A stretch of DNA of 22,413 bases from a virus, in the IMG/VR virus record IMGVR_UViG_3300035660_000335, positions 1 to 22,413 of that record; one strand, 5' to 3'. The notes beneath the pieces are model-generated. The model searched no databases. It saw only the letters and a program-made list of their open reading frames with translations, and was not told the origin of the DNA. This document shows positions 1,914 to 20,800 of the stretch, piece by piece. How positions within the stretch are numbered: position 1 is the first letter of the stretch; every line of letters starts with the position of its first letter. The position numbers and the translations under genes are program-made.

Positions 1914-2882
1914 CTATGCGGGGCCGCCAGGTGGCGGCATTGGTGCGACACTATCCTCGTCAACCTCAACGGCGATGCCATCGTCCAGCGGACTCTCGTC
2001 CCGTACCATGTGCATAGGCATAGGGACAGTCGGGTCCAGTGCCCACTCGATCTTCATCTTCCGGGCCCACACTAACATCCGCCGACCAGGTACGATGAAA
2101 TTCAAACCGGGACCGGCACCGAGGACGAGCAGACCGATGCACTTGCCGTCCGTCGTGTACACGCCACCACCACTGCTACCGGGGTAGCCCATACAGGATG
2201 TCTGATCGAACATCGGACCCGGCTCTAACAGATCACGGTCGGTCTGCGAAATGACTCCCAGACTTGCACTGTTGTATAGACCCAACGTACAACCCATGTG
2301 AACTATGGGCGTACCGACCGGCAACGGGCCAGTAAGATCGAAAGTCGCTGATGCCGTGGTGAAGTTGTCTTGCAAAATTTCCAATAAGGCAAGATCATCG
2401 CCCTTATCGGGATCACTGTAAGCAATGACCTTGGCTTCGGTCTTCACGGAGTCAATGTACTTGCCGGCTTCACGTCGTTCCTGATAGACCTTCAGAGGAC
2501 CGAATGTGCCATCATCATCGCGAACGCACAAAGCAACATGACCAGCGGTCCAGACGTAGGTCTTGCGAACGTCGCCGACCTGTCGAGTCACGAGCACACC
2601 GGTGCCCGAACTCCTACCGACTTCTACCCGGACCGTGACTGCATCGATAAGCTCGTAGGCGATAGACGCATCGAAACGCCGCAGTAACATGCCGACCTGT
2701 TCGTGGAGTTGAAAACGTAAGTCGGCGCAACTCGACTGCACATCCGCCAACTGACATGCCTGGTCACGCAGTCCATCACGTAGTCCAAGTGATGCACCTA
2801 TAAGCATCGCCACAGCGACGGCACCTACAAACAACTTGATGATCCGTCTCTCCTTTTCTTTTCCCGTTGTGTCGCCCATCAT
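1914..2882 (-). CDS. Membrane-anchored trypsin-like serine protease
   Basis: This 322-residue protein has an N-terminal hydrophobic segment (~14-34, IIKLFVGAVAVAMLIGASLG) preceded by a charged stretch, which fits a signal anchor. A chymotrypsin/trypsin-fold protease domain follows. The triad is visible: WTAGHV (H115), GDDLALLEI (D163) and GYPGSSGGGV (S237 in the GxSGG motif). The SGTGVLV strand before the His is also typical of this fold. The C-terminus is acidic and Pro-rich. Its ATG overlaps the helicase stop by four bases (ATGA), so the two are translationally coupled. Known family members cut proteins in the envelope or periplasm. A host-envelope, lysis or virion-maturation role is inference, and the substrate is unknown. 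Confidence 0.85.
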   Translation of the reverse strand: MMGDTTGKEKERRIIKLFVGAVAVAMLIGASLGLRDGLRDQACQLADVQSSCADLRFQLHEQVGMLLRRFDASIAYELIDAVTVRVEVGRSSGTGVLVTRQVGDVRKTYVWTAGHVALCVRDDDGTFGPLKVYQERREAGKYIDSVKTEAKVIAYSDPDKGDDLALLEILQDNFTTASATFDLTGPLPVGTPIVHMGCTLGLYNSASLGVISQTDRDLLEPGPMFDQTSCMGYPGSSGGGVYTTDGKCIGLLVLGAGPGLNFIVPGRRMLVWARKMKIEWALDPTVPMPMHMVRDESPLDDGIAVEVDEDSVAPMPPPGGPA

Positions 2883-5521
2883 TGCTTCTCCCAGTTGATG
2901 CCGCCTAGTATTTCACCTAGCGTGAGTAATTCCAGACGGCGATTCTCACGGATTACATCAAGCACCCGCTCGTCAGACGGCAAGTGCAAAAGATCAACGA
3001 TTACACACCCCTTGTTCAAGTCCATCCCGATTCGGTGAATACGATCCTCGCTTTGCGTTCGATACTCCGGCTTCCAACTGTTGGACCAGTACACTGCCAT
3101 GCGTGACTCAGTTAGCGTCAACGACATCCCACCAGTCTCCGGGTGAGACACGAAGGCCACCCGCGGATGGTCGAGATCGGACCAATAGTCCAACGCCTCC
3201 TCGTCCAGGACCGTCTTGCCCTCGTGTGTAGTCACCAGCCAGCCCCGGCCGTCGCACCGCACCACGTCCCACTTTTCCTTGAGGCAGATCGCAGCAACAC
3301 GATCCACCGACCCGGTAAACCCCGCGAAAATCACGATGCGGCCAGTTTCCTCGCACTCGTCCAGAAGTTCGCGAAGTTTCGCGTCCTTCGGGCACGGATA
3401 TTCCTTGGCAACGCGAATCTTCTTGGAAACTTCTTTCTTGCCGTGGCAGCGGGGGCAATCGACTAAGTGTTTCTCCAGGGGCCGATCAATCAGACTGGCA
3501 TCCTGGTAAGTCGTTCCGTCCGCGTCGAACCACTCATCAACCTGGCCATTACCGCAACAATGAGGGCAGGAAGTCTTGCCATCGGGCACGTCATGGTATT
3601 GAAAGCCGTCGCTCAACTCGCGCAGTAGCGTCAGGCCGGTAATCGTATTAGGAGCAGACGAGACAAGCGCCTCAGCCGCTCGCAGTGTACTAGCATTGGG
3701 TTTACAGTAGACGCGACGGTATTGTTTATCCGGCAAATCGAGGCAGTCCTTCTTGTGCTTAATGATGACCAAGCCTTTGAGTCGGTCGTACAGGTAGGCA
3801 ACCTCATTAACGCTGGGTTCGTACCGATGTCCCTCGTGCTCGTCTCCCTCAAAGTTTCCACAGTGCTTGCACTTCCGCTCGTCATCCTTCCAGCCAGAGC
3901 GTTTCTTGAAGATGCCCGCGTCAAACTCGTGATCGACAAGGAACGCGAGGCGGGCTTCCAACGCTTTAGGCGACCCCTCCTTGAGAAAACCGGGCCAGGC
4001 GATTTCGCACTGGCGCCACCAATCCAGTGGAGACTTCGGGCTCGGCGTGCCCGACATTTCAATGACGTAGCCATCGTATCCGTATTTATCTCGCACCATA
4101 TCGGCAAGCCGCTGAGCCGCTTCGCTTCGCTGGGAAGTTGCACCTTTGCAGCGGCTCGACTCGTCAAAGACCACCAACTGCGGAACTGGCATGGTAGGGT
4201 CCCACTCATCAATGACCCGCTTGAGTGCCTCGTAGTTCAACATCTCCACATGAATCATTGGATCAAGATTCCAGCGACGGAATTCGCGCTGAATATTAGG
4301 CAGGCTTGTCTTCGGGCCAATCCACCAACAGTCCTTGATGCCAGACCGCTCCATCACCTCCTGGGCGGCCAGGGTCTTGCCGCAATTCTTGACGATAAAG
4401 CCATTGGCGACGAAGTTGCGGTACGGGTCCGCACACACCACGTCATAGACTCTGGTATTTCCAGCGGGCGTCACGGATTCCACAGTTCCCAACGCCGCAT
4501 TGAAGTCAACTCGTTCTCGGCCGCCCGAGAGATTCCTGAAACCATTCCTTCGTGCATGAAGCCTTCTATGTTCAGCGTCTCGCAGCAATTGCAGGTTCTC
4601 AAAGCGGTTGTCGTCCTTACGCCCGTTGATATGGTGGACTACTTCGTCATCGTGGAGATACCGCCCGATGTATTTCTCCATGACCAAGACGTGCTCGTGC
4701 ATCGTCGCACGACGCCCGGCGCGCGGATGGCCCGGACAAGCCACCCAGACGTATTCTCCTGTGTCGCAGCGTGCTAACGGTTCCCACGTCCCGACGCCTG
4801 TACTGAGAAGCCCGCTCACCAAGACGCGGCTGCCCGGCTGCAAAACGTCTGCGCGAACAAGGTTCAGGTCGAAGTTGTAGAACTCGTGGTCGGGAGTAAC
4901 ACGGATCGAAATGCCGTTCGTCAGACGTACTTGCACGACCGATTGGACGCCTTTGTCGAGTACGTGTACGATGCGGTTGAGGCGCAAGGTGTCGCCGCAC
5001 AGAGAGCGAATGTAGGTAGGAATCAACTGATCCCACGCCCGACCACGGTCCTGCCCGCCATGAAACTTGCGCCACAACTCGGCCAAACTTATCTTAAATC
5101 CCTTGCCAGCCCTGTTGACGTGGACAAGGGCCTCTCCGTCCACGCACCCCATCTCGGCCGCCATGATGCCATAGTGATAGGTCAGGAAGTGATCGGCTAA
5201 ATCCTTCTGATGCGGCATCAGCGGGCGAGTGTACTCGTGCTTCTGCACTTCCCGGTCGAACCAGGCGTACGTATCCTCACCCATGAGGTAGGAAAGTTGA
5301 AAGCGATTGCGCTGGCAATCGGCGACTGACCAAATTTGCCGTGGCGGATCGAGATAGCCATGCCACTTCGAGCCGGTCATTGCCTTGATCTCGTCCTTCA
5401 AGGCGAAGGGGCTTTTCAAGAACTCGATGCGCCCACCGACGTACGCCAGTGTAGCCGTCGAACGGACCAGAGAGCCGCCTGCGGTGCGATGGATGAGTTT
5501 GACTTCTTGAACTTGTGTCAT
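2879..5521 (-). CDS. SNF2-like superfamily 2 helicase/ATPase interrupted by an intein
   Basis: The 880-residue precursor contains a 254-residue intein (126-379). Splicing would leave a 626-residue ATPase. The two parts rejoin as AAEMG + CGKTL, an intact Walker A motif. Downstream lie VVFDESS (Walker B/DExx), EMSGTPSP (motif III), FAGFTGS, SHPETGGMSLTL (motif V) and SEDRIHRIG (motif VI), the last strongly SNF2-like. Cys-rich pairs (CKHCGNF, CPHCCGNG, CPRCHGKK) suggest a zinc-binding insertion between the two RecA-like lobes. The MPHQ near residue 103 fits the Q motif. Related phage proteins are treated as replication, recombination or remodelling helicases. It overlaps both neighbours by ATGA. 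Activity would depend on protein splicing because the intein separates the P-loop. Confidence 0.9.
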   Translation of the reverse strand: MTQVQEVKLIHRTAGGSLVRSTATLAYVGGRIEFLKSPFALKDEIKAMTGSKWHGYLDPPRQIWSVADCQRNRFQLSYLMGEDTYAWFDREVQKHEYTRPLMPHQKDLADHFLTYHYGIMAAEMGCVDGEALVHVNRAGKGFKISLAELWRKFHGGQDRGRAWDQLIPTYIRSLCGDTLRLNRIVHVLDKGVQSVVQVRLTNGISIRVTPDHEFYNFDLNLVRADVLQPGSRVLVSGLLSTGVGTWEPLARCDTGEYVWVACPGHPRAGRRATMHEHVLVMEKYIGRYLHDDEVVHHINGRKDDNRFENLQLLRDAEHRRLHARRNGFRNLSGGRERVDFNAALGTVESVTPAGNTRVYDVVCADPYRNFVANGFIVKNCGKTLAAQEVMERSGIKDCWWIGPKTSLPNIQREFRRWNLDPMIHVEMLNYEALKRVIDEWDPTMPVPQLVVFDESSRCKGATSQRSEAAQRLADMVRDKYGYDGYVIEMSGTPSPKSPLDWWRQCEIAWPGFLKEGSPKALEARLAFLVDHEFDAGIFKKRSGWKDDERKCKHCGNFEGDEHEGHRYEPSVNEVAYLYDRLKGLVIIKHKKDCLDLPDKQYRRVYCKPNASTLRAAEALVSSAPNTITGLTLLRELSDGFQYHDVPDGKTSCPHCCGNGQVDEWFDADGTTYQDASLIDRPLEKHLVDCPRCHGKKEVSKKIRVAKEYPCPKDAKLRELLDECEETGRIVIFAGFTGSVDRVAAICLKEKWDVVRCDGRGWLVTTHEGKTVLDEEALDYWSDLDHPRVAFVSHPETGGMSLTLTESRMAVYWSNSWKPEYRTQSEDRIHRIGMDLNKGCVIVDLLHLPSDERVLDVIRENRRLELLTLGEILGGINWEKQ
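4385..5146 (-). other. Intein with HNH homing endonuclease domain, in the helicase P-loop
   Basis: This in-frame protein insertion runs from C126 to N379 of the helicase precursor, with C380 as the +1 nucleophile. Block A is CVDGEALVHV, block B is TPDHEF, and blocks F/G are VYDVV…NFVANGFIVKN followed by C. The centre (~276-322) is an HNH nuclease: EHVLVMEKYIGRYL, VVHHINGRKDDNRFENL, then EHRRLH. The residue before the terminal Asn is Lys where inteins usually have His. Family knowledge predicts autocatalytic excision and, through the nuclease, homing into intein-free alleles. P-loop insertion sites are common for inteins in viral ATPases. Whether this one splices efficiently cannot be read from sequence. 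Confidence 0.92.
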
Positions 5522-6075
5522 CGTTTGTGCGTCAGGTACAAAGTGCGGTCGGGTAGTTGATGCTGATCAAAGTCTTTCCAGGCGCCGATGCGCCTGGCCT
5601 CAAACAAACCTTGCACGCGATTGAAGAACGCCCGTATATTGGCCTGGCTATCTTTCACCGAGCCCGCTTCTACCGCGGCACGCCACTGTGCGAGTGTCCC
5701 TGTGACCACGGCAAGTTGCGTCCCTCGTTGCAGTGTTTCTCCGAGGGCGAAAGGCATCCCCGCAACCTGTAAGATGTCGAGCATGTCACGCTCTTCGGCA
5801 GCCACAAGCAAACTGAACGACACATGGGCGAACAGTCGGGATGTAATCGGTCCACACTGCAACGAAGCCAAGCACGCTAAGAACCGTTCCGTGTCCGATA
5901 AGTCGATCGAACTCGCATCAGCCTCTTCTGCAAGGCTGCGTCCAAGCGCCGGCTGACTCAGACCCAAGAGGGTCTGAAAGTCAGTCGACGGCATCTGGAT
6001 GATTACGGCATCGGCATTCATAAATCCGCTCGCTGGAATCCCCTTCACCGAAGCACTCGGTTGAGGCCGTGGCAC
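5518..6075 (-). CDS. Hypothetical protein in the replication operon (up to 185 aa)
   Basis: I do not recognise the family. The frame opens with GTG at 6075. An ATG at 6021 (MNADAVIIQMPSTDFQ) is an equally good or better start, because the first 18 residues look like non-coding translation. The protein is mostly helical by composition, with Leu/Ala-rich stretches, and the C-terminal part is more charged (ends DRTLYLTHKR). No catalytic motif, Cys cluster or membrane segment is visible. Its stop overlaps the helicase ATG by four bases (ATGA), so the two are coupled and it may be a helicase partner. That link is inference from position only. The gap of about 70 bases (about 120 if ATG is used) to the upstream gene holds no clear terminator. 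Confidence 0.7.
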   Translation of the reverse strand: MPRPQPSASVKGIPASGFMNADAVIIQMPSTDFQTLLGLSQPALGRSLAEEADASSIDLSDTERFLACLASLQCGPITSRLFAHVSFSLLVAAEERDMLDILQVAGMPFALGETLQRGTQLAVVTGTLAQWRAAVEAGSVKDSQANIRAFFNRVQGLFEARRIGAWKDFDQHQLPDRTLYLTHKR

Positions 6076-6144: not shown

Positions 6145-6924
6145 CTAACGAGCGCGTTCCTTACGGGCCGGCTCGGCGACCTTCTCGGTGCCACCCGACT
6201 TGACCGTGAGAAACTTGGTGATCTCGCGCACGACGATTGCCGTGGAAGGAGTCTTCCCGAACGGAGCCGACGACTTCACTGCCATCGGGACGTGCCACGA
6301 CTGGTTACGCTTGTTCTCCGCGAGGCGGACCTTCAGCGTCACGGGCATGGGGTCATGCGGCTCCAAACCGGTGACATCGGCGCCAGCGGCGGCCCGCCGG
6401 TCGATGTCAGCCTGAGCGAGCGGCAAGAACGGGAAGAGCTTCTTGGCCTCCGGCCGGCTGGACTTGTTGCCGAAGTAGACCTCAAGAAACTGCCCGGTGG
6501 ACTTTTCCAAGACAAGAAAGCTGACGCCGTGCTGGCAGCCGCTTTCCTTGACCATCGACTGGGCCGCAATCCGCTTGAACTCGTCGGACTGCTCGTCGTA
6601 GGAAACGACGATAGCGGATTTGTCGCTTGTATCGAGGGCCTTGGGTCGGCGGGCCAGCGGCAGGACGGTGATCGAGTCGCCAAGATCGACAATCTCCTCA
6701 TTACCGGCCTCGGGGATACCCCAATGTCCGGGGGGTATGCGACCCCTATCAATGTCGGCACCCTTGGTGTACAGTTTCACGTACTTGAGGAAGTCGCCTC
6801 CGCGGGAGAGTTCAGCGTACGCCTCGTCACTGCCAAGTTGAGTGGATGGAAGTTGAGTCAGGTCAAAAGTCATCAATTCGTTGCCCACAAGATGTTCCTC
6901 GCAAAAGAGTGAATTGAATTTCAT
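6145..6924 (-). CDS. Conserved phage-type protein of unknown function, possible ssDNA-associated
   Basis: This 259-residue protein is the first gene of the leftward unit. It contains the stretch GDFLKYVKLYTKGADIDRG, then GHWGI, a DLGDSITVLPLARRPKALD segment, SDEFKRIA and an SWHVPM motif near the C-terminus. I associate this pattern with proteins found beside phage replication genes that are sometimes suggested to bind single-stranded DNA. This is a resemblance, not an assignment. The C-terminus is basic (KVAEPARKERAR). Starts: ATG at 6924 (used here), GTG at 6927, or ATG at 6873 (MTFDLTQLPSTQ). None has a strong Shine-Dalgarno. If transcription starts in the adjacent 19-bp box, the leader to 6924 would be only a few bases, which favours either near-leaderless translation or the 6873 start. 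Confidence 0.75.
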   Translation of the reverse strand: MKFNSLFCEEHLVGNELMTFDLTQLPSTQLGSDEAYAELSRGGDFLKYVKLYTKGADIDRGRIPPGHWGIPEAGNEEIVDLGDSITVLPLARRPKALDTSDKSAIVVSYDEQSDEFKRIAAQSMVKESGCQHGVSFLVLEKSTGQFLEVYFGNKSSRPEAKKLFPFLPLAQADIDRRAAAGADVTGLEPHDPMPVTLKVRLAENKRNQSWHVPMAVKSSAPFGKTPSTAIVVREITKFLTVKSGGTEKVAEPARKERAR

Positions 6925-6957
6925 CACAGTGTTCGTCTTAAACTAGACCGGACCGCC

Positions 6958-7032
6958 TTATTTGTAGCGATATTTCAGAGAGTTTTCAGAAAAGTTTCAG
7001 AAAATTTTCAGGTAGTTTTCAGCTACAAATAA
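6958..7032. repeat. Perfect 11-bp inverted repeat enclosing the phased array
   Basis: TTATTTGTAGC at 6958-6968 is the exact reverse complement of GCTACAAATAA at 7022-7032. The arms are 53 bp apart and enclose four full units and most of the fifth unit of the phased array. The right arm begins on the final G of the last TTTCAG. Confidence 0.88.
6973..7027 (+). repeat. Five phased 11-bp repeats (TTTCAG iterons)
   Basis: TTTCAG occurs at 6973, 6984, 6995, 7006 and 7017, each exactly 11 bp from the last. The units are TTTCAGAGAGT, TTTCAGAAAAG, TTTCAGAAAAT, TTTCAGGTAGT and TTTCAGCTACA. The preceding base is usually T. The array is AT-rich and directional. About one helical turn per unit places every copy on the same face of the DNA. 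This fits iterons of a replication initiator or a cooperative operator array. Confidence 0.85.
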
Positions 7033-7076
7033 CTCAATTAGTCCTATTTTTAGATGAACACTAAGAAGAGGCACAA

Positions 7077-9770
7077 ATGCCAACAGTCAATCAGTCAATC
7101 CGAGCGTTCCTTGAAGCCCAGTTGCCGCGTCACAACGGCCCGGACTTGCTTCGACGAATCCTCATTCACTTCCCCGGACTGGAGGTCCAAGTCAAGGTTG
7201 CTGCCGACTCTGGCGAACCCGTGGACGGCAAACGGAGCACGTATACCGATGGTGTAAACGAGTGGTTCAATATCCGCACGCCCAAGAAGGCCGACAGTCA
7301 GCCTGAGTGGCATGACTATGAACTTCAATGGCCACTCGATCTTCACGCGGAGGCCATTGGTTGTACGGGTTGGGAGTGGACGACACGACGATCATTGTGG
7401 GTGGCCTTTGACGTGGACTCCTTAATCGGCCACGCGAAGGGGGTGGGACTAACAGACGAAGAGCTGGAGAAGGTCAAGTCGATGGCGTGCGACTTGCCGT
7501 ACGTCGAAGTCCGCCGCAGCACCGGCGGCACCGGGCTTCACCTCTATGTCTATCTTGACAGAATCCCCACCGAAAATCACACCGTCCATGCCGCACTGGC
7601 CCGCGCGGTGCTGGGCATGATGAGTTCCACCACGGGCTTTGATTTTGCGAGCCAGATCGATGCCTGTGGAGGCAACATGTGGGTCTGGCACCGCAAGATG
7701 ACTGCTGAGAACCACGGCCTAGAAATTATCAAGTCGGCGACCCAAACACTCTCCAGCAGTGATTTACCAGCCAACTGGCACGACCACCTGGCTGTCGTCA
7801 CCCGCCAACGAGCGAAAGTCCTAATCGCCAACCTGCCGGCCGAGGACATTGACCCGTTCGAGAGTCTTGCCAGTAGTCGTCGATTGGTTCCCCTGGATGC
7901 GATGCACAAGGCAATCATTGAAGAACTCGGCCGCTCCGGATTTTCCACTGTATGGGTGCCGGACTTCCACTTGCTGCAAACCCACACCCACGCGCTACAA
8001 GCCCTAATTGACAACCCCGAACACCGCACCAGCCTAAAGCTCAAAGGTTTCTTCCGGACGAATTCAAAGGGACGGGACCCCGCAACGCCCAACTGCTTCT
8101 GCTTCCCCGCCGAAGATGGAGCATGGCGGGTATACCGATTCTCTCCCGGTGTCGACGAGGCCGACATGTGGGAACAGGATGGTGTGGGTTGGACCACCTG
8201 CGACTTCAACAAAGCCGCCAATCTGTCAACGGCCGCAAAAGCGGGCGGCGGCACCGAAGCCCCGAACAATGGTGGCTATGTATTTCCGACTGCCGTCGAA
8301 GCCGGTGAAGTCGTGGAGGTACTTGGGCAAAAGTTGGACATCCCCGAACACCTCCAACAACGGGAAACCCGACTGAAGACCCAACGGGACGGAAGGATTG
8401 TCTTCAGCATCACCAAAGAAAACAAAGAGGAAGTAGCCCCTCCGGGATGGATCAACGATGGCAAAAAATTAACGCGCGTGTTGAAAGTGAAGTCGGAGGT
8501 TCAGGCTCAAGCGAACGAAGAGAGTTATGCCGAGCACGACAAGATCGCCCGTTTCGTGGTAACTCCGGCTGGTCGTAGCGCTGGCTGGTACGGCCGGGCA
8601 CAGAACGGCGTCTGGGTTGACGGTAACAAGGACGATATGAGGGGACTACTGCTTAGAGAAGGTAAATCGAAGCCCGAGGTTGACGTAATCATCGCAGATA
8701 TTTGGGCACGGCACTGGAAGCTTGTCAATCTGCCATTTCAACCCGAATACCCCGGTGACCGTCAATGGAATTTGGACGCGGCCCAATATAAAGTGAAGCC
8801 GGCCGACGCAGAAGGACCACACCCACACTGGGACATGATCTTGCAGCACTGCTTCTGCGACTTGGATGGGCCATTGAAGGAAATGCCGTGGGCACAGCGA
8901 GCCAACATCCGGACCGGGGCCGACTATGGACTACTCTGGTCGGCCTGCCTGTTGCGTGAACCCTTTTGCCCTTTGCCCTACCTATTTTTGTACGGCGACG
9001 AGAACTGCGGCAAATCAATTTTCCACGAAAGTTTTGCCATTCTCGTCACTAAGGGTTTGGTTAGTGCAAACAACGCCCTTCAAAATCAAAATGGATTCAA
9101 TGGGGAACTAGCAACAGCCATCCTCGCGTATGTGGAAGAAATCGACATCTCCCATACGCCGGGAGCGCTGGCCAAAATCAAAGAATGGGTACTCAGTCCG
9201 ACGTTTCCCGTACGGAAGATGCGGACCGACACCTACGCCATTCCGAATACTCTACATTTCGTCCAAACCTCTAATTACCCGGAGTATTGCCCCATTTTCC
9301 CGGGCGACACGCGGATTACCATGGCCCACGTTGCGCCACTGGAAATCGAAATTCCCCGCCGAAAGATGGACGATTATCTCAAAGAAGAGGCGCCAGCCTT
9401 CCTTCGCACGCTGCTTGACTTGCCACTGCCAAGTGCGGACGGCCGACTTCGCATCCCCGTAGTCGAGACACACAACAAGGTGGCCGCACAAGACCTCCGC
9501 CGAACCCCGGTGGAGCAGTTCATCGCGGAACACTGCCACGCGATACCGGGAAGCCGGATTCCGTTCTCGGATTTCTGCGAACGGTTTCGTGCTCAACTGC
9601 CGGATGAAGAGGGAGTGAAGTGGAGCAAACCGCGTATCGCCCGCGCGCTGCCATCGAAGCACCCCGCGGGTTCGCATACCGGAAACGTAAAGTACGTCGT
9701 CAATCTATCCTGGGACCCCGAAACACCGACTGAGCCCTGGGTCGTCGTCGATGGGAGGCTGACCCGATGA
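7077..9770 (+). CDS. Primase-superfamily 3 helicase fusion (replication protein)
   Basis: This 897-residue protein is likely the virus's primase-helicase. The N-terminal part has archaeo-eukaryotic primase features: VAFDVDS (D112 and D114, candidate metal ligands) and STGGTGLHLYV (148-158), followed by FDFASQIDACGGNMWVWHRK. The C-terminal third is a D5/SF3 helicase: Walker A GDENCGKS (640-647), Walker B YVEEID (685-690), and motif C around VQTSN (729-733) with GDTRIT after it. Such proteins make primers and unwind DNA at the origin. The ATG at 7077 has AAGAGG seven bases upstream and beats an out-of-frame ATG at 7054. It lies directly beside the repeat-rich control region, which supports an origin there. 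Its last codons overlap the next start (ATGA). It appears complete. Confidence 0.93.
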   Translation: MPTVNQSIRAFLEAQLPRHNGPDLLRRILIHFPGLEVQVKVAADSGEPVDGKRSTYTDGVNEWFNIRTPKKADSQPEWHDYELQWPLDLHAEAIGCTGWEWTTRRSLWVAFDVDSLIGHAKGVGLTDEELEKVKSMACDLPYVEVRRSTGGTGLHLYVYLDRIPTENHTVHAALARAVLGMMSSTTGFDFASQIDACGGNMWVWHRKMTAENHGLEIIKSATQTLSSSDLPANWHDHLAVVTRQRAKVLIANLPAEDIDPFESLASSRRLVPLDAMHKAIIEELGRSGFSTVWVPDFHLLQTHTHALQALIDNPEHRTSLKLKGFFRTNSKGRDPATPNCFCFPAEDGAWRVYRFSPGVDEADMWEQDGVGWTTCDFNKAANLSTAAKAGGGTEAPNNGGYVFPTAVEAGEVVEVLGQKLDIPEHLQQRETRLKTQRDGRIVFSITKENKEEVAPPGWINDGKKLTRVLKVKSEVQAQANEESYAEHDKIARFVVTPAGRSAGWYGRAQNGVWVDGNKDDMRGLLLREGKSKPEVDVIIADIWARHWKLVNLPFQPEYPGDRQWNLDAAQYKVKPADAEGPHPHWDMILQHCFCDLDGPLKEMPWAQRANIRTGADYGLLWSACLLREPFCPLPYLFLYGDENCGKSIFHESFAILVTKGLVSANNALQNQNGFNGELATAILAYVEEIDISHTPGALAKIKEWVLSPTFPVRKMRTDTYAIPNTLHFVQTSNYPEYCPIFPGDTRITMAHVAPLEIEIPRRKMDDYLKEEAPAFLRTLLDLPLPSADGRLRIPVVETHNKVAAQDLRRTPVEQFIAEHCHAIPGSRIPFSDFCERFRAQLPDEEGVKWSKPRIARALPSKHPAGSHTGNVKYVVNLSWDPETPTEPWVVVDGRLTR

Positions 9771-9958: not shown

Positions 9959-10360
9959 ATGACCGCCCCTACAATAAAAGACTCGGGTTCAAGGTCCAAA
10001 TTTTGCACCGGAGCAGTACGTGATTGCCAGACTGGCAAGGGACGCATGGACCTACTCCCTATGCGGACACTGATCCGCCTAGCCCAGCACTTCGAGGAGG
10101 GCGCGGTGAAGTATGGCGACGACAACTGGCGCAAGGGGATTCCCCTTCGTAGGTTCGCCGACAGTGCCCTGCGTCACCTCTGCAAGTTCCTGCGAGGCGA
10201 CCGAGACGAGCCGCACCTGATTGCGGCCGTCTGGAATCTGGCCTGCCTCTACGAGACCCAATCTCTCATTGAAGAGGGTCTACTGCCGACGGCGCTAAAT
10301 GATCTGCCGAACAATCCCCTTGAAGTCCAGAAGAACCCGCTCAACATCCAACCAACATGA
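9959..10360 (+). CDS. DUF5664 / dATP-dGTP diphosphohydrolase N-terminal-like protein
   Basis: This 133-residue protein has the hallmark pattern of a common phage domain: FCTGAVRDCQTGKGRMDLLP, LIRLAQHFEEGAVKYGDDNW.KGIPL.RF.DSALRHL.KFL.GDRDEPHL.AAVWN. Databases name related domains dATP/dGTP diphosphohydrolase N-terminal (DUF5664), related to MazG-like helical nucleotide hydrolases. Acidic residues in the two EEGA/GDRDE helices could bind metal. If active it would hydrolyse purine deoxynucleotides and shape the dNTP pool. Enzymatic activity of this single-domain form is inferred. No purZ-type adenylosuccinate synthetase is visible nearby, so a modified-base pathway is not supported here. The start at 9959 has GAGGAA six bases upstream. 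Confidence 0.82.
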   Translation: MTAPTIKDSGSRSKFCTGAVRDCQTGKGRMDLLPMRTLIRLAQHFEEGAVKYGDDNWRKGIPLRRFADSALRHLCKFLRGDRDEPHLIAAVWNLACLYETQSLIEEGLLPTALNDLPNNPLEVQKNPLNIQPT

Positions 10361-11886: not shown

Positions 11887-12306
11887 TTAGTATACTGTAG
11901 ATCGAAGAATTTTTCCATTCGAGTTAGTTCCAGCAAGAGCAATTCCGTTGCCAAGGTAACAAAGAGCGCTAACAAAAGTCTCACTAAATTGCTGACCTAA
12001 ACTTGACCATGATGCTCCGTAGTTAGCGGACCGAAGAATTTTTCCATTCTCGGCAGTTCCAGCAAGAACAATTCCATTAGTGAGGTAAGCAAAATCCCAA
12101 ATCTGGGTATCATTATATTGCCCACCTACGTGTACCCATGTTGCTCCGTAATCAGTGGATCGAAAAATGCGTCCAGTTGCACTGGTTCCCGCAAGAGCAA
12201 TTCCGTTACCGAGGTAGCAAATATCGTGAATACAAACCTCACTGAGTTGCTGACCTAAGTTGTACCACGTTACTCCATAGTCAGGTGATTCGAAGAATTT
12301 GTCCAT
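11887..12306 (-). pseudogene. C-terminal part of a frameshifted Asp-box propeller fibre gene
   Basis: This 139-residue frame continues the repeat domain of the adjacent collagen-like protein in a different frame. It holds Asp-box (BNR) repeats of the type LGNGIALAGT…GKILRS.DYGATW, which form beta-propeller blades in sialidases and related proteins. The first ATG (12306) has no Shine-Dalgarno and lies inside a repeat. The upstream ORF ends at the point where the repeat period is one base too long. Removing one base would join the two into a 448-residue protein spanning 11887-13234. The last blade is cut short (RSTVY then stop). It is probably not translated independently unless the ribosome shifts frame. 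Confidence 0.8.
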
Positions 12307-12520
12307 GTGCGCTAGTTCCAGCGAGAATAATTCCGTTACCGAGGTAGCAAAGACTCACAATCGCCGTCTCCCCGGATGACTGATCTGACCATGTTGCTCC
12401 GTAGTCAACGGATCGAAGAAGTTTTCCATGTGGGTAAGTTCCAGCAGAAGCAATTCCGTTACCGAGGTAGCAAAGACTCACAATCGCCGTCTCACTAAGT
12501 TGCTGGCCTAAGTCCGTCCA
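11904..12520 (-). repeat. Five propeller-blade repeats, period 129 bp
   Basis: Blade-coding units start at 11904, 12033, 12162, 12292 and 12415 (aligned on cgaaga). The intervals are 129, 129, 130 and 123 bp. The 130 marks the frame-breaking extra base near 12284-12292. The 123 is a clean two-codon deletion. Copies share long identical stretches, so recombination between them is likely. Confidence 0.85.
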
Positions 12521-13234
12521 AGACTTACCAAACGATTCGATGAAAGCCTTATTAAGAGTAGCGATAGTAGTAAGATCAGCGCCTGGGGGACCGCTCGGAC
12601 CGCTTGGACCGCTCGGACCGCTTGGACCGCTTGGACCGCTTGGACCGGTCGGACCGGGGTCACCGGGGTCACCGGGGTCACCGGGGTCACCGGGGTCACC
12701 GGGGTCACCGGGGTCACCTTGAGGGCCACTTGGACCGCTCGGACCGCTCGGACCGCTCGGACCGCTCGGACCAGGATCACCTGGGTCACCGGGGTCGCCT
12801 GGGTCGCCTGGGTCGCCTGGGGGACCGCTCGGTCCACTCGGACCGCTCGGACCGCTTGGACCGCTCGGACCGCTTGGACCTGTGGCCCCAATTGCAGCCA
12901 ACACATCCCAATAGGTCCCGTTAGGTGGTTGCTGATTCGTGCACCCCAAGATGCAAACGTAAGAAGTTCCAGCACTGGTGACTGCATCATCGACCGCATA
13001 AGCATGGTCACCGTCCCAGGTCCCGTGCCAATTCACGCCTTCTGGGCCTTGTGGTCCCACTACCCCGTTTGATCCGAAAGCAACCTCTAAGACTTTCCCC
13101 TGAGTTGCAATCAATTCGGCGGTAAGACGGTCCCAATCCTCGTCCGTGGGATTACAACTGAACTTGTCCCGCAAAAGGTTGCCTGTCTTTCCGTCCCAAA
13201 CCGAATCAGGGAAACTTGGTTGTATTTTACTCAT
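12281..13234 (-). CDS. Collagen-like tail fibre, truncated by a frameshift
   Basis: This is a 317-residue fibre or receptor-contact protein. Residues ~1-55 ([12 protein letters not shown]…[15 protein letters not shown]) resemble the N-terminus of the large collagen-like protein ending at 16521, probably a virion attachment domain. Next comes a carbohydrate-binding-like module ([17 protein letters not shown]…YVCILG…W). About 100 residues of Gly-X-Y (GPSG, GDPG blocks) follow, then the first Asp-box blades. It stops (RIT then TGA) where the blade should read DYG.TW, so most of the propeller is in another frame downstream. Its ATG overlaps the glycosyltransferase stop (ATGA). The function as a host-adsorption fibre is inferred from domains and context. 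Confidence 0.85.
12580..12886 (-). repeat. Collagen-coding 9-bp repeats
   Basis: Tandem copies of ggaccgctt/ggaccgctc and ccggggtca encode GPS and GDP triplet blocks of the fibre stalk. Blocks alternate: six or seven GPSG-type, then GDPG-type, and repeat. Unspaced, coding-frame repeats of this kind expand and contract by slippage. They are not a CRISPR array. Confidence 0.9.
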
Positions 13235-14388
13235 TTCATCGTCTCAAAAGTTGTCAACCAGTTAAGTTGTTGGCGCTCACGCTCGGCGTACCAACCTTGG
13301 CCCCACAGGTCCGTCAACATCTGAAAGTATTCCTGATATTTCCACCGCACACGATCCATACTATAATTCGCCATGGCTCGTTCGTGGATGTACTGCGGGT
13401 CCAACGTGGACGCACTCTTAGCCGCAAAGAGAAAGTGGTCAAGGGTTCGGCAGCGAAATCCCGTCTTGCCGTGCTCGACCGTTTCGGGGAACGCGCCGAA
13501 ATCGGTCGTGATAACGGGTGTCCCCGCCATTTGGGATTCGATTGCCACCGCGCCGAAAGGCTCTAAATATACAGTTGGAACGAATGTCGCGATAGCGTTC
13601 TGGTACAACTTCGCCCGCTTCTCTCCGGTGGCAAAACCGACGTACTCCAGGTTGTCGCCTGCGTAAACTTCGCCGTCCGCGCAGTGGATTCGGTTGCCGT
13701 CCACCTTGACGCATCCCTGCCCCGCGATCTTCAACTTTGCGCCCAACCGCTTGCATGTCTCGACAGCGATGTTGATGCCTTTGCGTTTGATGAGCCGGCC
13801 TAGGTAGAGGTAGTAATCGCCCTTCTCAACTTGGAGCGGGTAGTCGGCCGGGTTCAGATAATTTTGGATCACCGCGTCGTAAAAGTAACCGTTCGGATCG
13901 AATCCGCCCTCAGCGCCATAAATCTTGTGCATGTGGGCGTAACTCTCGAAGACCCGATACTTGGCAAAAGTGCCGTTGTAACCAATGCCGTACTCGACCA
14001 CCATCACGTCATTGCCGACAGTCTCAGCCAACGACTGATTCAATGCGCCCATGATGATGCACACGAAGTCGCGTGACTGCTTCCGTTTGTTGATCTCAAC
14101 GGCAGTCCGATCGTTCATCAACTTCCAATACGGTGCCCTGCCTGACCAATCCACCTCGTAGAGGGTATTAGGATCGTAAGAGCCGAAGAACGACTCTTGC
14201 TCCGCGCGAGACATGATCGTCACGTCCTCGTCGCACTCCACCTCGCTTCCCTCTACACCGTAGTGGTAAACCTCGTGACCAAGACTCTTCATCATCTGGA
14301 TAAAGTGCAGGGTCTTCATGGTAAACGCACATGCAGAATGAAATACATTCGTCTGGGTATGTGGCAAGGCAACAACGTGAAATCGCAT
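13231..14388 (-). CDS. GT4-type glycosyltransferase (GT-B fold)
   Basis: This is a retaining GT-B glycosyltransferase of 385 residues. The C-terminal nucleotide-sugar domain shows [19 protein letters not shown] (~192-210), [17 protein letters not shown] and the donor-binding motif EPFGAVAIE (E276-x7-E284), followed by [25 protein letters not shown] set the start at ATG 14388 ([12 protein letters not shown]), which has AAGGTG just upstream and follows the upstream stop by 22 bases. An earlier ATG at 14424 lies inside the previous gene. The sugar and acceptor are not known. Its place between two fibre genes, coupled by ATGA to the collagen-like one, suggests glycosylation of fibre proteins. Modification of host surface sugars or of DNA are alternatives. 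Confidence 0.88.
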
Positions 14389-14410
14389 TTTACACCTTTT
14401 ATACTGGGCC

Positions 14411-15817
14411 TTATTGTGCGGCAAGCAGACGGTCTACTTTTTCTGTCAAGGTCGCGATGGTGGCTCGTTGCTGCTTCACAAGTTCCACCAGGTACAGAGA
14501 AATCAATTCGTAGCGAATGGACTCAGGCTGGCCGGCATCATCGCAGACCACCAGGTTCTTCAAACCCAAGTCCACAAAATCTTCCGCGATGTAGCCCACA
14601 CTCGGACAATCCGTCTCAATGTAACGAAAACTCACTGGCGAAGCACCTAGAATCTTGACAAACTCCTCTGCCAACGGTTGGATGTCCTTCTTATACTTCC
14701 TCGCCGACGAGGTTTTGTAGAAGTTGCCATTGGCATCAATCACCACGGCCGTGCCAGCAACACCTGTCAGACCAGTCACAGCAAAGTTGGTGGTGGGAGC
14801 CATTCCTATACCAACCTTGCCGGCACCTGTGATTACAAACATATTGTTTGTAATTTGATCCGCACCTGCTGCAATATGGAAACTATCATCTGTATTGATA
14901 CCGAATGTCCACCACTGCATGGCACCACCCGCACTGGTCGCACCATAAAGATTCCAAGCAGCTTGAGCAGCAACAGACGGACTCGCCTGAATTACACGAC
15001 CTTTCGTCGCTGGATTTGCAATTGCACTAATGTCGTTAATATGAATACAGGCATCGGCCGTAGCAACCGCCGTACTGATTACTAATGCACCACCGATCGC
15101 CTGCAATTTAGCGTATGTCCCGCTAGTATTCGCACCAATTGTCAGTTTATGAGCAACTGAATCATAATAGAAGTAGGAATTATCTTGTGCGAGGACGGGA
15201 CCAGTGCCAACGTATAAAACTGATCCCGTTGTGCCAGACGTTACCGCCGAACCAATAGCAAGTGGACCCGTAGGTCCTGTATCTCCTTTCGGCCCCGTGG
15301 CACCAGTTGGACCTTGATCACCCTCCAAACCAGTTAAACCTTGGATTCCTTGTTGACCAGCAAGACCAATGTTCCAATCAGTTTTTGTTCCCGAACCACC
15401 AATCAAATCAATACTGACAACCAACGTAGTCCCAGAATAGGACGTAACTAAACCCTCCATGAAATTTGTCCCGTCTGCCGCACTGGCAGCACGTACCCGA
15501 TTACCCGTCAAATACGCCAATCCTGCCTGTGTGGTAAAGGTCTTACTCCCGGTTCCAATTGCTAAAGACGTGACCGAAGTAGCAACATAACTCGGACCGG
15601 TCGGACCGGTCGGACCGGTCGAACCGGTCGGACCAGTCGGCCCGGTCGGACCAACTCGCGTACTCCAGGATAGATTTCCACTGCCATCAGTAACCAAAAC
15701 TTGATTAAGACTACCGTCAGCAGCGGGAAAAATGAACGGCGCAATCACAAACTGATCGCCAGCAGTAAATTGACGAACCTGTCCGCCATCCACAATCAAT
15801 GGTCTCTGTTGAGCCAT
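14411..15817 (-). CDS. Collagen-like tail fibre with C-terminal S74 chaperone
   Basis: This 468-residue fibre has a short N-terminal module (PLIVDGGQVRQFTAGD) shared with the gene at 15870-16508, then a Gly-X-Y stretch (~56-76). A middle region follows with a second collagen-like stretch (~167-202, GLAGQQGIQG…GPTGP) and beta-rich sequence. A C-terminal peptidase S74 intramolecular chaperone begins near residue 370 (SSARKYKKDIQPL…VSFRYIETD…VGYIAEDF…LISLYLVELVKQQ…LTEKV). In known fibres and endosialidases this domain drives trimer folding and then cleaves itself off at a Ser near its start, so the mature fibre would be ~370 residues. A strong GGAGGAG precedes the ATG at 15817. It is likely a trimeric receptor-binding or side fibre. 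Confidence 0.88.
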   Translation of the reverse strand: MAQQRPLIVDGGQVRQFTAGDQFVIAPFIFPAADGSLNQVLVTDGSGNLSWSTRVGPTGPTGPTGSTGPTGPTGPSYVATSVTSLAIGTGSKTFTTQAGLAYLTGNRVRAASAADGTNFMEGLVTSYSGTTLVVSIDLIGGSGTKTDWNIGLAGQQGIQGLTGLEGDQGPTGATGPKGDTGPTGPLAIGSAVTSGTTGSVLYVGTGPVLAQDNSYFYYDSVAHKLTIGANTSGTYAKLQAIGGALVISTAVATADACIHINDISAIANPATKGRVIQASPSVAAQAAWNLYGATSAGGAMQWWTFGINTDDSFHIAAGADQITNNMFVITGAGKVGIGMAPTTNFAVTGLTGVAGTAVVIDANGNFYKTSSARKYKKDIQPLAEEFVKILGASPVSFRYIETDCPSVGYIAEDFVDLGLKNLVVCDDAGQPESIRYELISLYLVELVKQQRATIATLTEKVDRLLAAQ

Positions 15818-15831
15818 ACTGAAACTCCTCC

Positions 15832-15855
15832 TCCTGCCACACTTGGGTGGCAGGA
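15832..15855 (-). promoter_or_regulatory. Intercistronic hairpin next to a ribosome binding site
   Basis: TCCTGCCAC (15832-15840) and GTGGCAGGA (15847-15855) form a perfect 9-bp stem with a 6-nt loop. In the minus-strand transcript the hairpin lies immediately before the GGAGGAG of the S74 fibre gene, and its 3' arm ends in AGGA. There is no following U run, so it is not a standard intrinsic terminator. It may tune translation or mark an mRNA processing site. Confidence 0.55.
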
Positions 15856-15869
15856 AGTCATCATTGTTA

Positions 15870-16508
15870 TTACAACTTAATCGGAGCCATCACCATCAAG
15901 TCCATTTTCGTGGCGCTGATCGCGCGTCCGACGCGCACAACAAACTGTCCGGCAGTCGTCGGGGCGGTTTCCGTGAGTAAACCAACCGTAGCCCCACTCA
16001 AATAATAAATGGCACCAGGAGTCAGGCCGCCGGTAGTACCTGCAACAATGTCCCACTCGCCAGTCGTAGCTGTCAGAACACCGTCGATCAAAATCTGACC
16101 GGATGCAGTAGTGAGAATCGAAGCATCCTTCACCAAACCGAGTACCTCCGTGGTGGCCAGTGCATTCGCCCGAGCGAGATCAATACCACCGGTAGACTTT
16201 GTGTAAACCGGTGAACCAATCACAATAGTCCCAGCATTGTCATTAACCATCCCGATGTCATCGACACCACTAGCTCCAGTCGGACCACTCGGACCACTAG
16301 GACCACTAGGACCACTAGGACCACTAGGACCAGCATCGGGGTCCACCCATTCCAGTACCGTACCGGAAGCCGGAACGGCAAGAACCTGAGTGGGATCACC
16401 CATCGACTCAGGCAATTTAAACGCACCCATGTCAACTCCGTCACCAGATTGAATCTGTTCGAGTTGACCACCATTCAACACCAGTGGTTTCCGATAATCC
16501 ACAGTCAT
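15870..16508 (-). CDS. Short collagen-like fibre/decoration protein
   Basis: This 212-residue protein has the N-terminal module KPLVLNGGQLEQIQSGD, which parallels the S74 fibre's N-terminus. Around residues 60-80 there is a short GPSG collagen-like run. The C-terminal domain (IGMVNDNAGTIVIGSPVY… [11 protein letters not shown]…VGRAISATKMDLMVM) matches the C-terminus of the large collagen-like gene next to it. It therefore looks like a hybrid of its two neighbours. The C-terminal domain also resembles beta-rich phage surface or decoration domains seen beside tail fibres, but no enzyme motif is present. The start ATG at 16508 has AAAGGTG upstream. It is likely a virion surface protein, and its exact position in the tail is unknown. 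Confidence 0.8.
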   Translation of the reverse strand: MTVDYRKPLVLNGGQLEQIQSGDGVDMGAFKLPESMGDPTQVLAVPASGTVLEWVDPDAGPSGPSGPSGPSGPSGPTGASGVDDIGMVNDNAGTIVIGSPVYTKSTGGIDLARANALATTEVLGLVKDASILTTASGQILIDGVLTATTGEWDIVAGTTGGLTPGAIYYLSGATVGLLTETAPTTAGQFVVRVGRAISATKMDLMVMAPIKL

Positions 16509-16520
16509 TGTAACACCTTT

Positions 16521-17828
16521 CTAAAGACGCACCCTTGTTTTGATGTTAATGTCAAGAAGTGTTGTCGTCATTGCAACCCCAACTTGTACCACGAAACCGG
16601 ATGCAGGAGGAATCGTAGTAATCTGCCCACTAACAGCATCCAAATAGTAAATTGCTCCGGGGGTCAGAAGACCGATCCCTCCCAAAGGAATAGACCAATC
16701 TGTTAACTCCAATCCTCCTACTGGAACAATGTCGAAAGTACCACCAGTTAATACTTCTCCCCTACAAAACCCACAGATTTGACTCGTTGTCCCTAATACT
16801 GCCTCTGCCCGATAAGCTAACGTATCCACTTGATTCACATAAACCGGTTGACCAGCATGGATTGCCTCCCCGGCCACTGCCTTGATGTCTTCAGAACTCT
16901 GAGAGCCAGCAGGACCGGTTGGACCGGGATCACCTTTTGGGCCGGGAGGTCCAGGAGAAGAAGTCCCACCCCCACCACCCATTCCAGGTGCCCCACGATC
17001 AACAATCAGAATCCATTGAGACCCATCAAATGGATAACCTAATTTCCCCGTCTTACGAGCTTGGTATAAAGCACCTTTATACGTTACAATATCGTTTTCT
17101 TGATACTCCGACCCAAAAACGTACGGCATTACACGAACTTTTACTGGTGGTCCAGGGATGCCGGGATCACCTTTCGCACCGGGATCACCAGCCGGGCCGG
17201 TGGCCCCTGTTGCGCCGTCATCACCCTTCGCACCCGCCGGGCCGGTGGCCCCTGTTGCGCCGTCATCACCCTTCGCACCCGCCGGGCCGGTGGCCCCTGT
17301 TGCGCCGTCATCACCCTTCGCACCCGCCGGGCCGGTGGCCCCTGTCGGGCCGAGATCACCTTTCGCACCGGTGGCCCCTGTTGCACCGTCATCACCCTTC
17401 GCACCCGCCCCGCCGATGGCCCCTGTTGCGCCGTCATCGCCTTTCGCACCCGCCGGACCGGTGGCCCCTGCCGGGCCGGTGGCCCCTGTTGCGCCGTCAC
17501 CAGCCGGGCCGGTGGCCCCTGTTGCGCCGTCATCACCCTTCGCACCCGCCGGGCCGGTGGCCCCTGTTGCGCCGTCATCACCCTTCGCACCCGCCGGGCC
17601 GGTGGCCCCTGTTGCACCGTCATCACCCTTCGCACCCGCCGGGCCGGTGACCCCTGTTGCACCCGTTGGCCCCACTTCACCGCTGTCACCCGTGGACAGA
17701 TGTTTTTGAACAGCGACGATCTCATTCGCCATGTCCTGCCAATCGCGCGCATCGGGAGGCTGTACATACCCAGTCTCCAGGGTACGGCGTGTCAGACCGT
17801 TCCAAATTCGGCGCGGAAAACTTGACAC
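16521..17828 (-). CDS. Large collagen-like fibre protein (435 aa)
   Basis: I start this gene at GTG 17828, immediately after GGGAGGT and overlapping-adjacent to the stop of the tail-tip gene. A longer frame from 17984 lies inside that gene. The N-terminus ([15 protein letters not shown]…[15 protein letters not shown]) parallels that of the propeller fibre. About 180 residues of Gly-X-Y follow, mostly the 15-residue unit [15 protein letters not shown]. Next is a carbohydrate-binding-like module ([18 protein letters not shown]…W), a second short collagen stretch ([14 protein letters not shown]), and a C-terminal domain ([11 protein letters not shown]…VQVGVAM) shared with the next gene. It is likely a trimeric stalk with distal binding domains. 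The order after the tail-tip gene suggests attachment to the tail end. Confidence 0.87.
17175..17655 (-). repeat. 45-bp collagen-coding tandem repeats
   Basis: Near-identical 45-bp units (cccttcgcacccgccgggcc, then ggtggcccctgttgcgccgt, then catca) each encode 15 residues, [15 protein letters not shown]. Several copies are identical at the DNA level and some are shortened to 9-30 bp. This implies recent expansion or ongoing homogenisation. The region is extremely GC-rich and produces long antisense frames that are not genes. Confidence 0.9.
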
Positions 17829-17829
17829 A

Positions 17830-20800
17830 TTAACCTCCCGCCACCCTCGGTTTCCGGACTTCGCCTTGATTCGGTGCATTCTGATTACCGGGTGGTACCT
17901 CAAGGCATTCACTGCCATGTGGGGTTGGACCGGAAACCCAAGCTGGGAACGTCTCGCCAGTCGCCGCCCACCAACCTGTTCCACCGCAATGTGGCGTCGA
18001 CGAATACTCTTGAGCCTTCACTCTCATTTGACTTGCAAAAAGAGATGCACTGAAAAGAGCAGTGAATGTGTGACATATCTGCGTGGAACTACTATCACAA
18101 ACAAGTCCTTTCGTGCTGGCCGGTCGACCGCAAGGACCTGCACAACCACCGTTACCCATCCCTATAAGATTAGCCGTCAGATAGGTCACGGTTACGGTAT
18201 AAATACAACCAGCATCCCCATACAACACCTCGCCACAGACCCGATCCTCTTTCTCCTTCTTATCATTGACCCCGCCGGCAGCCGCCGGAGTATCAATCTT
18301 TGTTTGCTGTATGTCACGGTTGGCCTTCTTCAATGTACGAATAATCGGGTCATTTTCATCAATAATCGCGTCGTCCGTGGCGGGGCAAAAGCACGTTTCC
18401 AATACGTCGTCCAGATCGGACGGATGCTCGTCACCGGATGTCAGGACTGCGGGCGGATTGCCGTCCGGCTCCTGGGCAACATACAAAAGATGTCCCGACG
18501 GTGGACTAACCGTGAAGTTGTAACCCAAACCCGCCAAGCGCTCCTCGGCCGTAGGGAAGATCGTGCCCACAGCGATGTCGGCGGGCCACGCATGAACGTA
18601 GGGAACGGCCTCGCCCGCCCGCAATGGCGTCCAGCAGGTGAAGGTAATTTCCTCTGCGCCCACATCATACTTCACCGCCGTAATGACCGCCTTGACCGGC
18701 TGCGGGGCCACGTCGGACAAATCCAACGTCACACAATCAAAGACCTCCAAGTCCAAGTACTTCAAGGGCGTAGTGAACTCGACCGTCTTCCAAACATTCG
18801 CATCCCGAATCATCCAGAACGTAGCACTTTTCAGTACATTGTCGTAAAGGTTCTGCGTGTAGTACGCCAGGGTCTTCTCATGCGTGCCGTACTTGGCGAC
18901 GTTGTGTTTGAGGACGATCTTCAGTTCGCCTTCCGACTGGCTCCGCGACCAGGTGACAACGTGCTTGGTGAATACGTCATCCGTGCTACTGAGACCGACT
19001 TTCAACGTGTTGGCCAATACATCACTCTCAGTGATCGTTACAGCCGTCAATCCTTGATTGAGTAAGGTTGGTTCCTCCGAGGCATACTTCAGGTATACCA
19101 CATCGTCGCGGACGTAAACCATACAACGACTCTGTACGGCAATGTCCGCAATCAATTCCATCACATTCTTACGTTCCAAGAGCGCAAACTGAACGGGGTA
19201 TTTCTCCAATCGCGTGCGCACATGGTCGAACGAATCGCCGTCCACATCGAGCGACGTGTACTGCCCCACGAGCCAGGCGATGATGTCCACCGGGTTTGGG
19301 TCAATTGGATTTGGAACCGAAGAGGTGAGTGTGACATACAGGTCGTCCGACCACTTCGAGGCGACCACGCGCTTAGCGCCGTCCTGGTCCGTGACGATCT
19401 CGGACCGCTGACTGAGTGGCTTGGTCATACCGATCTCGGTCACCGTGTAACCACCATAGTTAGTCTCGTAGATGGTATAAAACTCGACGGGCACTGTGAC
19501 CAACTTGGGACCAAAGTTGGTCTGCTTCATGGCCGCCACACGGGTGATCGTGGAAGGAAGGAGGTTGACGATGTACAAGACCTCGGCCTCGGCCTCCAAG
19601 AACACCTTGCTCCCGGCCCTAGCCCAGAAGAGTGAGTCGGTGGCCATGTTGTCGTAGGCTTTGCGGGAGTCCACCGGGCCGCCCACGGAAAGGCGGCCGG
19701 GTTGACTCTGAATCTCCTTGTCGCACCAGGCCGTGAATTCCCGAGGATCAAAGTTTGTCCCGCCCGAGGAACCATTAACGACGCGGGAATCGTACCAAGA
19801 CGAACCTGATTGAGTCTGCTTCCAGGCCCCGCCCTCCAGGACACTGCCCGTCGCGAAACTGCGATCATTCACTGGATGGCATTGAGAGGGCGGGTTGACG
19901 ACCAGATCAGGGTGCTCACGATTTTCAATGGTGAATACGTCGCCAGCGAACCGCCCAATGAACTTGCCACCCTCAATGTTGATCGTGATGCGCTGGTTCT
20001 GCGGGAAGAGTGTAGTCGCCCCACGAATGGTCATCGTCGGATGTTCGTAAGAAACCTGCTGTTGCAACTGATACATCAGATCGCAGATGATGTAGAAGCG
20101 ATCCTCCACACAAGACTGATCCGGTCCCCAGTTCTGTTGTTTCGCGGCATCAAAAATCCATGGGTCCGACGATGATACTCCAGGAGTAAGTATGGTAGAA
20201 GCTGTCACCACGTCCGACTCACCCAACGGGACGTTCGCGCACTGGATGTACTTGGCCTGGCAGATACGAGATTCGAGCGTGTAGTCGTGGATCGCCTCTC
20301 CCGCTTGCAGGATGCCGTAGCGGGGCGCGCGGACCTGGGTGGCCTTCACGTCGCAGACCGAGCCGAAGACCAGCGGCCAGGGTTTCCCCAAGGCGTCTGG
20401 CGGGATCACAGGGAAGTCCCCCTCCTCCATCGAAAAGCCCGCCTCCACGTCCTCGATCTTGGTAGTCACGTCGAAGCTGACCGTGCGATCCCCCTCGTTC
20501 CAGGAGAAGGGACTGTTGATCTCCCCCTTGAACAACAGGAACTTGTCCGAGAGGCTCAGTCCGTCGAACCATTGGTAGACCCAGACGGGGCGCTTGTGCA
20601 GGTCGTGACTGTCGCAGATCGCCTTGATCGCGCCGTCCGTATCATCCAGAGTCAACTTCACCTGGCTGGAATCGCTGCTACCATCGGTCTTCATGGCCGA
20701 GTCGATGTTGCCGATCTCCACGATCTGCCCGAGGATCGAAGCGGTGATCTTGCGATCGGCGTAGGCGCAGCGCTGCCCGCCATCGACCCATTGGATTTCG

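Follow-up and report, generated by a model that had tools for sequence, protein, structure and literature searches.

The primase-polymerase of NrS-1 starts DNA synthesis at TTTGGTTA, a sequence that reportedly occurs as two opposite-strand copies at the centre of the NrS-1 genome and has been proposed as its origin (PMC8718748, PMC7102993). Across the 36.7 kb of NrS-1 read here (AB746912.1, locus L161), the exact TTTGGTTA was found once, at the junction of two GGTTACACTTT iterons. About 11 such iterons, in both orientations and including inverted pairs, lie directly 3' of the primase gene at 17061-17378, three of them at 12-bp spacing. This region is annotated as protein NRS1_29, which may be spurious, and repeats are not mentioned in the NrS-1 literature searched. 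Comparable seven-copy clusters were found directly 3' of the homologous NrS-1-type primase genes of Stenotrophomonas phage S1 (CCCGCACA; L162, 2489-2733) and Halomonas phage H4907 (CTGTCTGA; L164, 4934-5155), and the two halves of the S1 cluster are mirrored.

Three other kinds of system share parts of this layout. The pri-rep-ori regions of SaPI and other phage-inducible islands have repeats of element-specific sequence that flank an AT-rich region near primase or helicase genes, and their iterons are multiple and lie 3' of the initiator gene. Bacterial bidirectional promoters are pseudo-symmetric DNA between divergent genes, where a single promoter with overlapping elements is read either way (PMC12825309). 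OmpR/PhoB-type regulators bind tandem boxes, direct repeats with an 11-bp period; the sites of Mycobacterium PhoP are 7-bp direct repeats with a 4-bp spacer, 11 bp in all (PMC4832192).

The window considered here is the whole stretch of DNA that was analysed, 22,413 nucleotides of the IMG/VR virus record IMGVR_UViG_3300035660_000335. It shares with NrS-1 a homologous ring-helicase half and short iterons at near-one-turn spacing beside the gene, whereas the NrS-1 iterons, about 11 copies of another sequence in both orientations, are downstream, and TTTGGTTA is not enriched in the gaps of the window's family. Unlike in the phage-inducible islands, the repeats of the window are two mirrored arms that lie at a divergence point, on the 5' side of the gene. 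In contrast to bidirectional promoters, it has two separated, near-identical outward elements around a central array and no sigma-70 consensus. It differs from OmpR/PhoB boxes in having five copies, of a sequence that is not known as such a box.

The TTTCAG array and its setting

The features of the locus are as follows (window coordinates).

6145..6888, minus strand: left divergent gene, 247 aa, with a probable GTG start at 6888 by alignment with relatives L001, L002 and L098
6921..7069, no strand: whole mirrored region, with 48-nt arms (6921-6968 and 7022-7069), a 53-nt centre and its axis at 6995
6928..6946, minus strand: outer block of the left arm, CTAGTTTAAGACGAACACT read outward, 11 bp beyond the inner block
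6958..6968, minus strand: inner block of the left arm, GCTACAAATAA read outward
6958..7062, no strand: AT-rich segment, 28.6% GC, which includes the AT-richest 100 bp of the window
6962..6967, plus strand: degenerate in-register copy TTGTAG, two mismatches, overlapping the left inner block
6973..7027, plus strand: array of five TTTCAG hexamers, units TTTCAGAGAGT, TTTCAGAAAAG, TTTCAGAAAAT, TTTCAGGTAGT and TTTCAGCTACA
7022..7032, plus strand: inner block of the right arm, GCTACAAATAA, its first G being the last base of the fifth TTTCAG
7044..7062, plus strand: outer block of the right arm, CTATTTTTAGATGAACACT, 11 bp beyond the inner block and 14 nt before the primase ATG
7077..9770, plus strand: primase-SF3 helicase, 897 aa, its C-terminal part homologous to the NrS-1 primase-polymerase

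An earlier note on this DNA, made from the letters alone, had described five TTTCAG hexamers at exactly 11-bp spacing, and the sequence confirmed all starts (6973, 6984, 6995, 7006 and 7017) and the uniform step. The same note placed all copies on one DNA face, which holds roughly and not exactly, since an 11-bp step drifts by about 2 bp over four steps against a 10.5-bp helix. The five hexamers are identical, while the 5-bp spacers between them differ, and the last hexamer ends 54 bp from the primase ATG at 7077. In none of 60 dinucleotide shuffles of the window did any hexamer occur in five copies evenly spaced at 8-25 bp. The only other constant-spacing arrays of five hexamers in the window are 9-bp coding repeats in the collagen-like tail genes. 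TTTCAG or CTGAAA occurs 11 times in the window, and five of these copies are within the array.

Around the array lies an inverted repeat, a larger structure absent from the earlier note, whose centre the array fills. The array has a single orientation, unlike the symmetric elements that flank it. Read outward, each side consists of GCTACAAATAA, an 11-bp unconserved spacer and then CTANTTTNAGANGAACACT. Through the inverted repeat, both flanking genes are given outward GCTACAAATAA and CTANTTTNAGANGAACACT in the same register. The arms are 71% complementary, and the best ungapped mirror score was 20, whereas 500 shuffles reached at most 16. The lowest-GC 100 bp of the window has about 28% GC, compared with 55% window-wide. 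In both the window and L001, the arms are two conserved blocks separated by an unconserved spacer, as would be expected of protein-binding or promoter elements and not of a continuous hairpin stem. This two-block decay may indicate which positions are under selection. A search against Rfam gave no match, and the window's arms were not found in other virus contigs.

The rightward primase operon is a short island in a genome that is otherwise mostly leftward. In this operon, a gene at 9959-10360 (plus strand) encodes a dATP/dGTP diphosphohydrolase N-terminal domain (Pfam dGTP_diPhyd_N) and is followed by genes for an HNH/AP2 protein and a DnaQ-like exonuclease. Two leftward regions were also observed: a DNA helicase gene (phrog_62) with an intein carrying an HNH endonuclease at 2879-5521, and, at 12281-18000, several tail proteins of collagen-like Gly-X-Y type, with long repeats of 9, 18 and 45 bp.

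A search of the primase against INPHARED gave no match. The family profile (A2) matched only the NrS-1 primase-polymerase in the PDB (6k9c, 6lrb and 6k9e; E 6.7e-11 for 6k9c), a homology of the SF3 ring helicase. The N-terminus has invariant D112, D114, S148, G153 and H155, which fit AEP motifs, but only 1 of 22 members matches the Pfam AEP-TOTE model and one the LigD Prim-Pol model, weakly.

The mirrored region among relatives

The relatives comprised 80 viral contigs found through the primase, L098 found through the left gene, and two bacterial MAG contigs. The nearest by primase identity are L001 (66%), L098 (62%) and L002 (60%). TTTCAG arrays were absent from these three and from every other relative gap examined, so that the array is known from one lineage only, that of this virus. 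Being specific to the window virus, its function cannot be read from conservation. Among the family gaps scanned, only L024 had a comparable array of such length in register at 11 bp: four AAGTAA-like copies at the centre of its primase gap. A wider role of TTTCAG at 11-bp spacing as a phage motif was considered and rejected: four-copy 11-bp arrays were found in 11 stretches of viral contigs for TTTCAG and in 15 and 26 stretches for two control hexamers.

The more general finding is the family's mirrored divergent region, which goes beyond the TTTCAG array; the array is a private decoration at the centre of this mirrored control region. An inverted repeat beyond that of shuffled sequence was present in 47 of 53 distinct gaps (40 shuffles each), with its axis at a median of 0.52 of the distance from one gene start to the other. 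In 41 of 54 loci, no stronger inverted repeat lay within 8 kb. The gap also holds the AT-richest 100 bp in 34 of the 54 loci, compared with 2.2 expected. Perfect arms measure 20-47 bp, and their sequences are unrelated between distant viruses. Where sequences differ among L003, L004 and L009, the differences are mirrored, both arms being alike. No convincing copy of the arms was found elsewhere in 49 of 51 loci; in the other two, L027 and L028, a single third copy stands in front of a second ParB-like gene. Template switching by DNA polymerase is established to homogenise the arms of inverted repeats (PMC8604942), and perfect arms are therefore explicable without a functional hairpin.

In six relatives, including L034, L073 and L075-L077, the mirror axis lies 0.7-2.1 kb from the primase. 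In the named loci, the ParB-like gene and the primase are set further apart, by extra genes or by a longer gap, and the mirror is at the divergence point. Where an extra leftward gene adjoins (a methyltransferase in L050; also L068), the mirror is placed beyond that gene. The mirrored repeat tracks the divergence point and not any particular gene.

In most relatives examined, the left gene encodes a protein with a ParB_N domain, usually together with an HTH_ParB domain. The window, L001, L002 and L098 have an unrelated protein of about 245 aa in its place, which gave no database matches in any of the four; the structure predicted for the window's protein is of low confidence (pLDDT 35). ParB_N was not found in these four records, of which those of the window, L001 and L098 are fragments and that of L002 is 77 kb. 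The mirror persists in all four without ParB_N, so it is not simply a ParB site, which weakens a ParB-like operator as the sole reason for it.

Some further patterns were observed near these gaps. A recurrent TGATTTGATT...AATCAAATCA dyad occurs shortly upstream of start codons in the 5' regions of L014, L018, L022 and many other relatives, and one of the most frequent 8-mers in the gaps is ATCAAATC (25 of 54). A conserved CGTTTAYACGC-like short palindrome lies between the mirror and the primase ATG in L003-L007 and L009, degenerate in L005. Between the divergent genes of L098, at 5887-5994, lies a perfect inverted repeat of 47 bp with a loop of 14 nt.

Possible roles in transcription control and as a replication origin

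The best reading of the locus, to which we give a probability of about one in two, is a mirror-symmetric divergent promoter/operator in which TTTCAG would form a lineage-specific array for cooperative binding. Two transcription units diverge from the gap. Transcription control is favoured by where the mirrored region lies, by its symmetry, by the way it follows the divergence point and by the lone arm copy in front of another gene. The two outward copies of GCTACAAATAA-11 bp-CTANTTTNAGANGAACACT, one facing rightward to the primase-helicase operon and one facing leftward to the 247-aa gene, would be matching promoter/operator halves. A putative DNA-binding protein, of phage or host, may bind the TTTCAG array cooperatively, loading along one face, and the loaded protein would switch or balance the two divergent transcripts. 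The replication genes and the leftward transcription unit could thereby be controlled together. Arms that match within a virus and differ between viruses may be kept so by polymerase template switching between them, acting on a structure that is presumably selected for symmetry. The TTTCAG repeats are probably a binding array and most likely serve the control of the divergent transcripts.

Some results stand against a promoter, among them the single orientation of the array between symmetric elements. Arms of 20-47 perfect bp are more than a promoter requires, and arms without other copies in nearly all loci are unlike a shared phage promoter; a general phage promoter was not supported on the same count, the only further convincing copies being those of L027/L028 among the 51 loci. 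A sigma-70 promoter was not found in the window gap. Outward sigma-70 -10 boxes at arm ends had been seen by eye in some relatives and were not supported, as a -10 matrix over 36 relatives showed no outward bias there.

A replication origin, the main rival, is a tentative reading with a lower probability, and the two roles are mutually compatible. The arms would serve, one on each strand, as start or recognition sites, the TTTCAG hexamers would be initiator iterons and the AT-rich centre would be the segment that melts. The primase-helicase would be an NrS-1-type self-priming enzyme, and promoter function may coexist. The match of the family profile to NrS-1 alone in the PDB and the iterons beside the primase genes of NrS-1, S1 and H4907 favour this reading; however, those three clusters are downstream of the gene and not upstream, and six other INPHARED relatives have no iteron cluster beside the primase. 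The AT-richness of the gap, in the window as in most loci, is also in favour, as are arms that are unique within a locus and virus-specific and an AT-rich centre between repeats like that of phage-inducible island origins. Among the traits of an iteron origin, the window has the in-register short repeats, not reproduced by shuffling, and the adjacent AT-rich segment. Repeats kept with changed sequence were not found in the relative gaps scanned, except in L024.

The earlier note had called the array a strong candidate for the viral replication origin or its master switch. The switch part gains from the divergence point and from a mirror kept across the family. The origin part is weakened, as the gene pair is kept in relatives that all lack the TTTCAG repeats, an outcome that the note itself had named as refuting, and the mirrored repeat remains at the divergence point even when the primase gene is far away. 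The GC skew check proposed in that note gave the origin no support. Skew is negative where genes run leftward, turns positive in the primase operon and returns to negative past its end. Because skew tracks gene strand, and no cumulative turn independent of strand was seen, it was discounted as origin evidence; in four large records, no global cumulative turn was present at the gap.

TTTGGTTA as a start site of the family was likewise rejected. It occurs twice in 25.1 kb of family gaps, a rate not clearly above the rest, and by eye its exact form was found only in L006 (arms) and in L010 and L020 (left arms).

A more specific combination, which is doubtful, would join both roles. The arms would be paired opposite start sites for an NrS-1-type self-priming primase-polymerase within the divergent promoter of its own operon, the virus-private site changing in both arms at once and TTTCAG iterons being added here, which would make the region a bidirectional self-primed origin fused to a transcription switch.

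Unlikely is a neutral 11-bp tandem duplication in AT-rich spacer DNA. Four-copy arrays of the control hexamers are as common as those of TTTCAG, and the array is present in one lineage only, which agrees with this explanation. The five hexamers are identical while their spacers differ, which argues against it with less force given the post hoc choice of hexamer, and the array takes up precisely the symmetric middle of a control region that is conserved. More improbable still is a tandem box of hexamer-N5-hexamer type for a host winged-helix response regulator of the OmpR/PhoB class, which would tie the replication genes to the state of the host. Five consecutive direct repeats at 11 bp, running up to the rightward element's inner block, have the right geometry, but TTTCAG is not known as an OmpR/PhoB-type consensus, the box is missing from relatives, and this explanation is really a sub-case of the divergent promoter/operator. 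The least probable is that the region functions as a DNA cruciform or an RNA hairpin: single-strand folds are predicted to be strong in L001 and L003 (z about -8) and L098 (z -21), but that of the window region is moderate (z -3.6), with its stem broken by the 11-bp unmatched spacer on each side, and Rfam gave no match.

Meaning for the phage family

The mirrored divergent region recurs, with its sequence completely changed, in nearly every member of a phage family for which no relative was detected in INPHARED. This family is a natural series for the concerted evolution of two inverted sites, and it also serves the question of how a phage switches its replication genes jointly with the remainder of its genome. 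If the origin reading is true, the arms would be candidate start sites for NrS-1-type self-priming replication, for which an in vivo origin has so far only been proposed. The mirrored stretch is where the genes of an uncultured phage family are read both ways, and perhaps also where copying of the genome starts.
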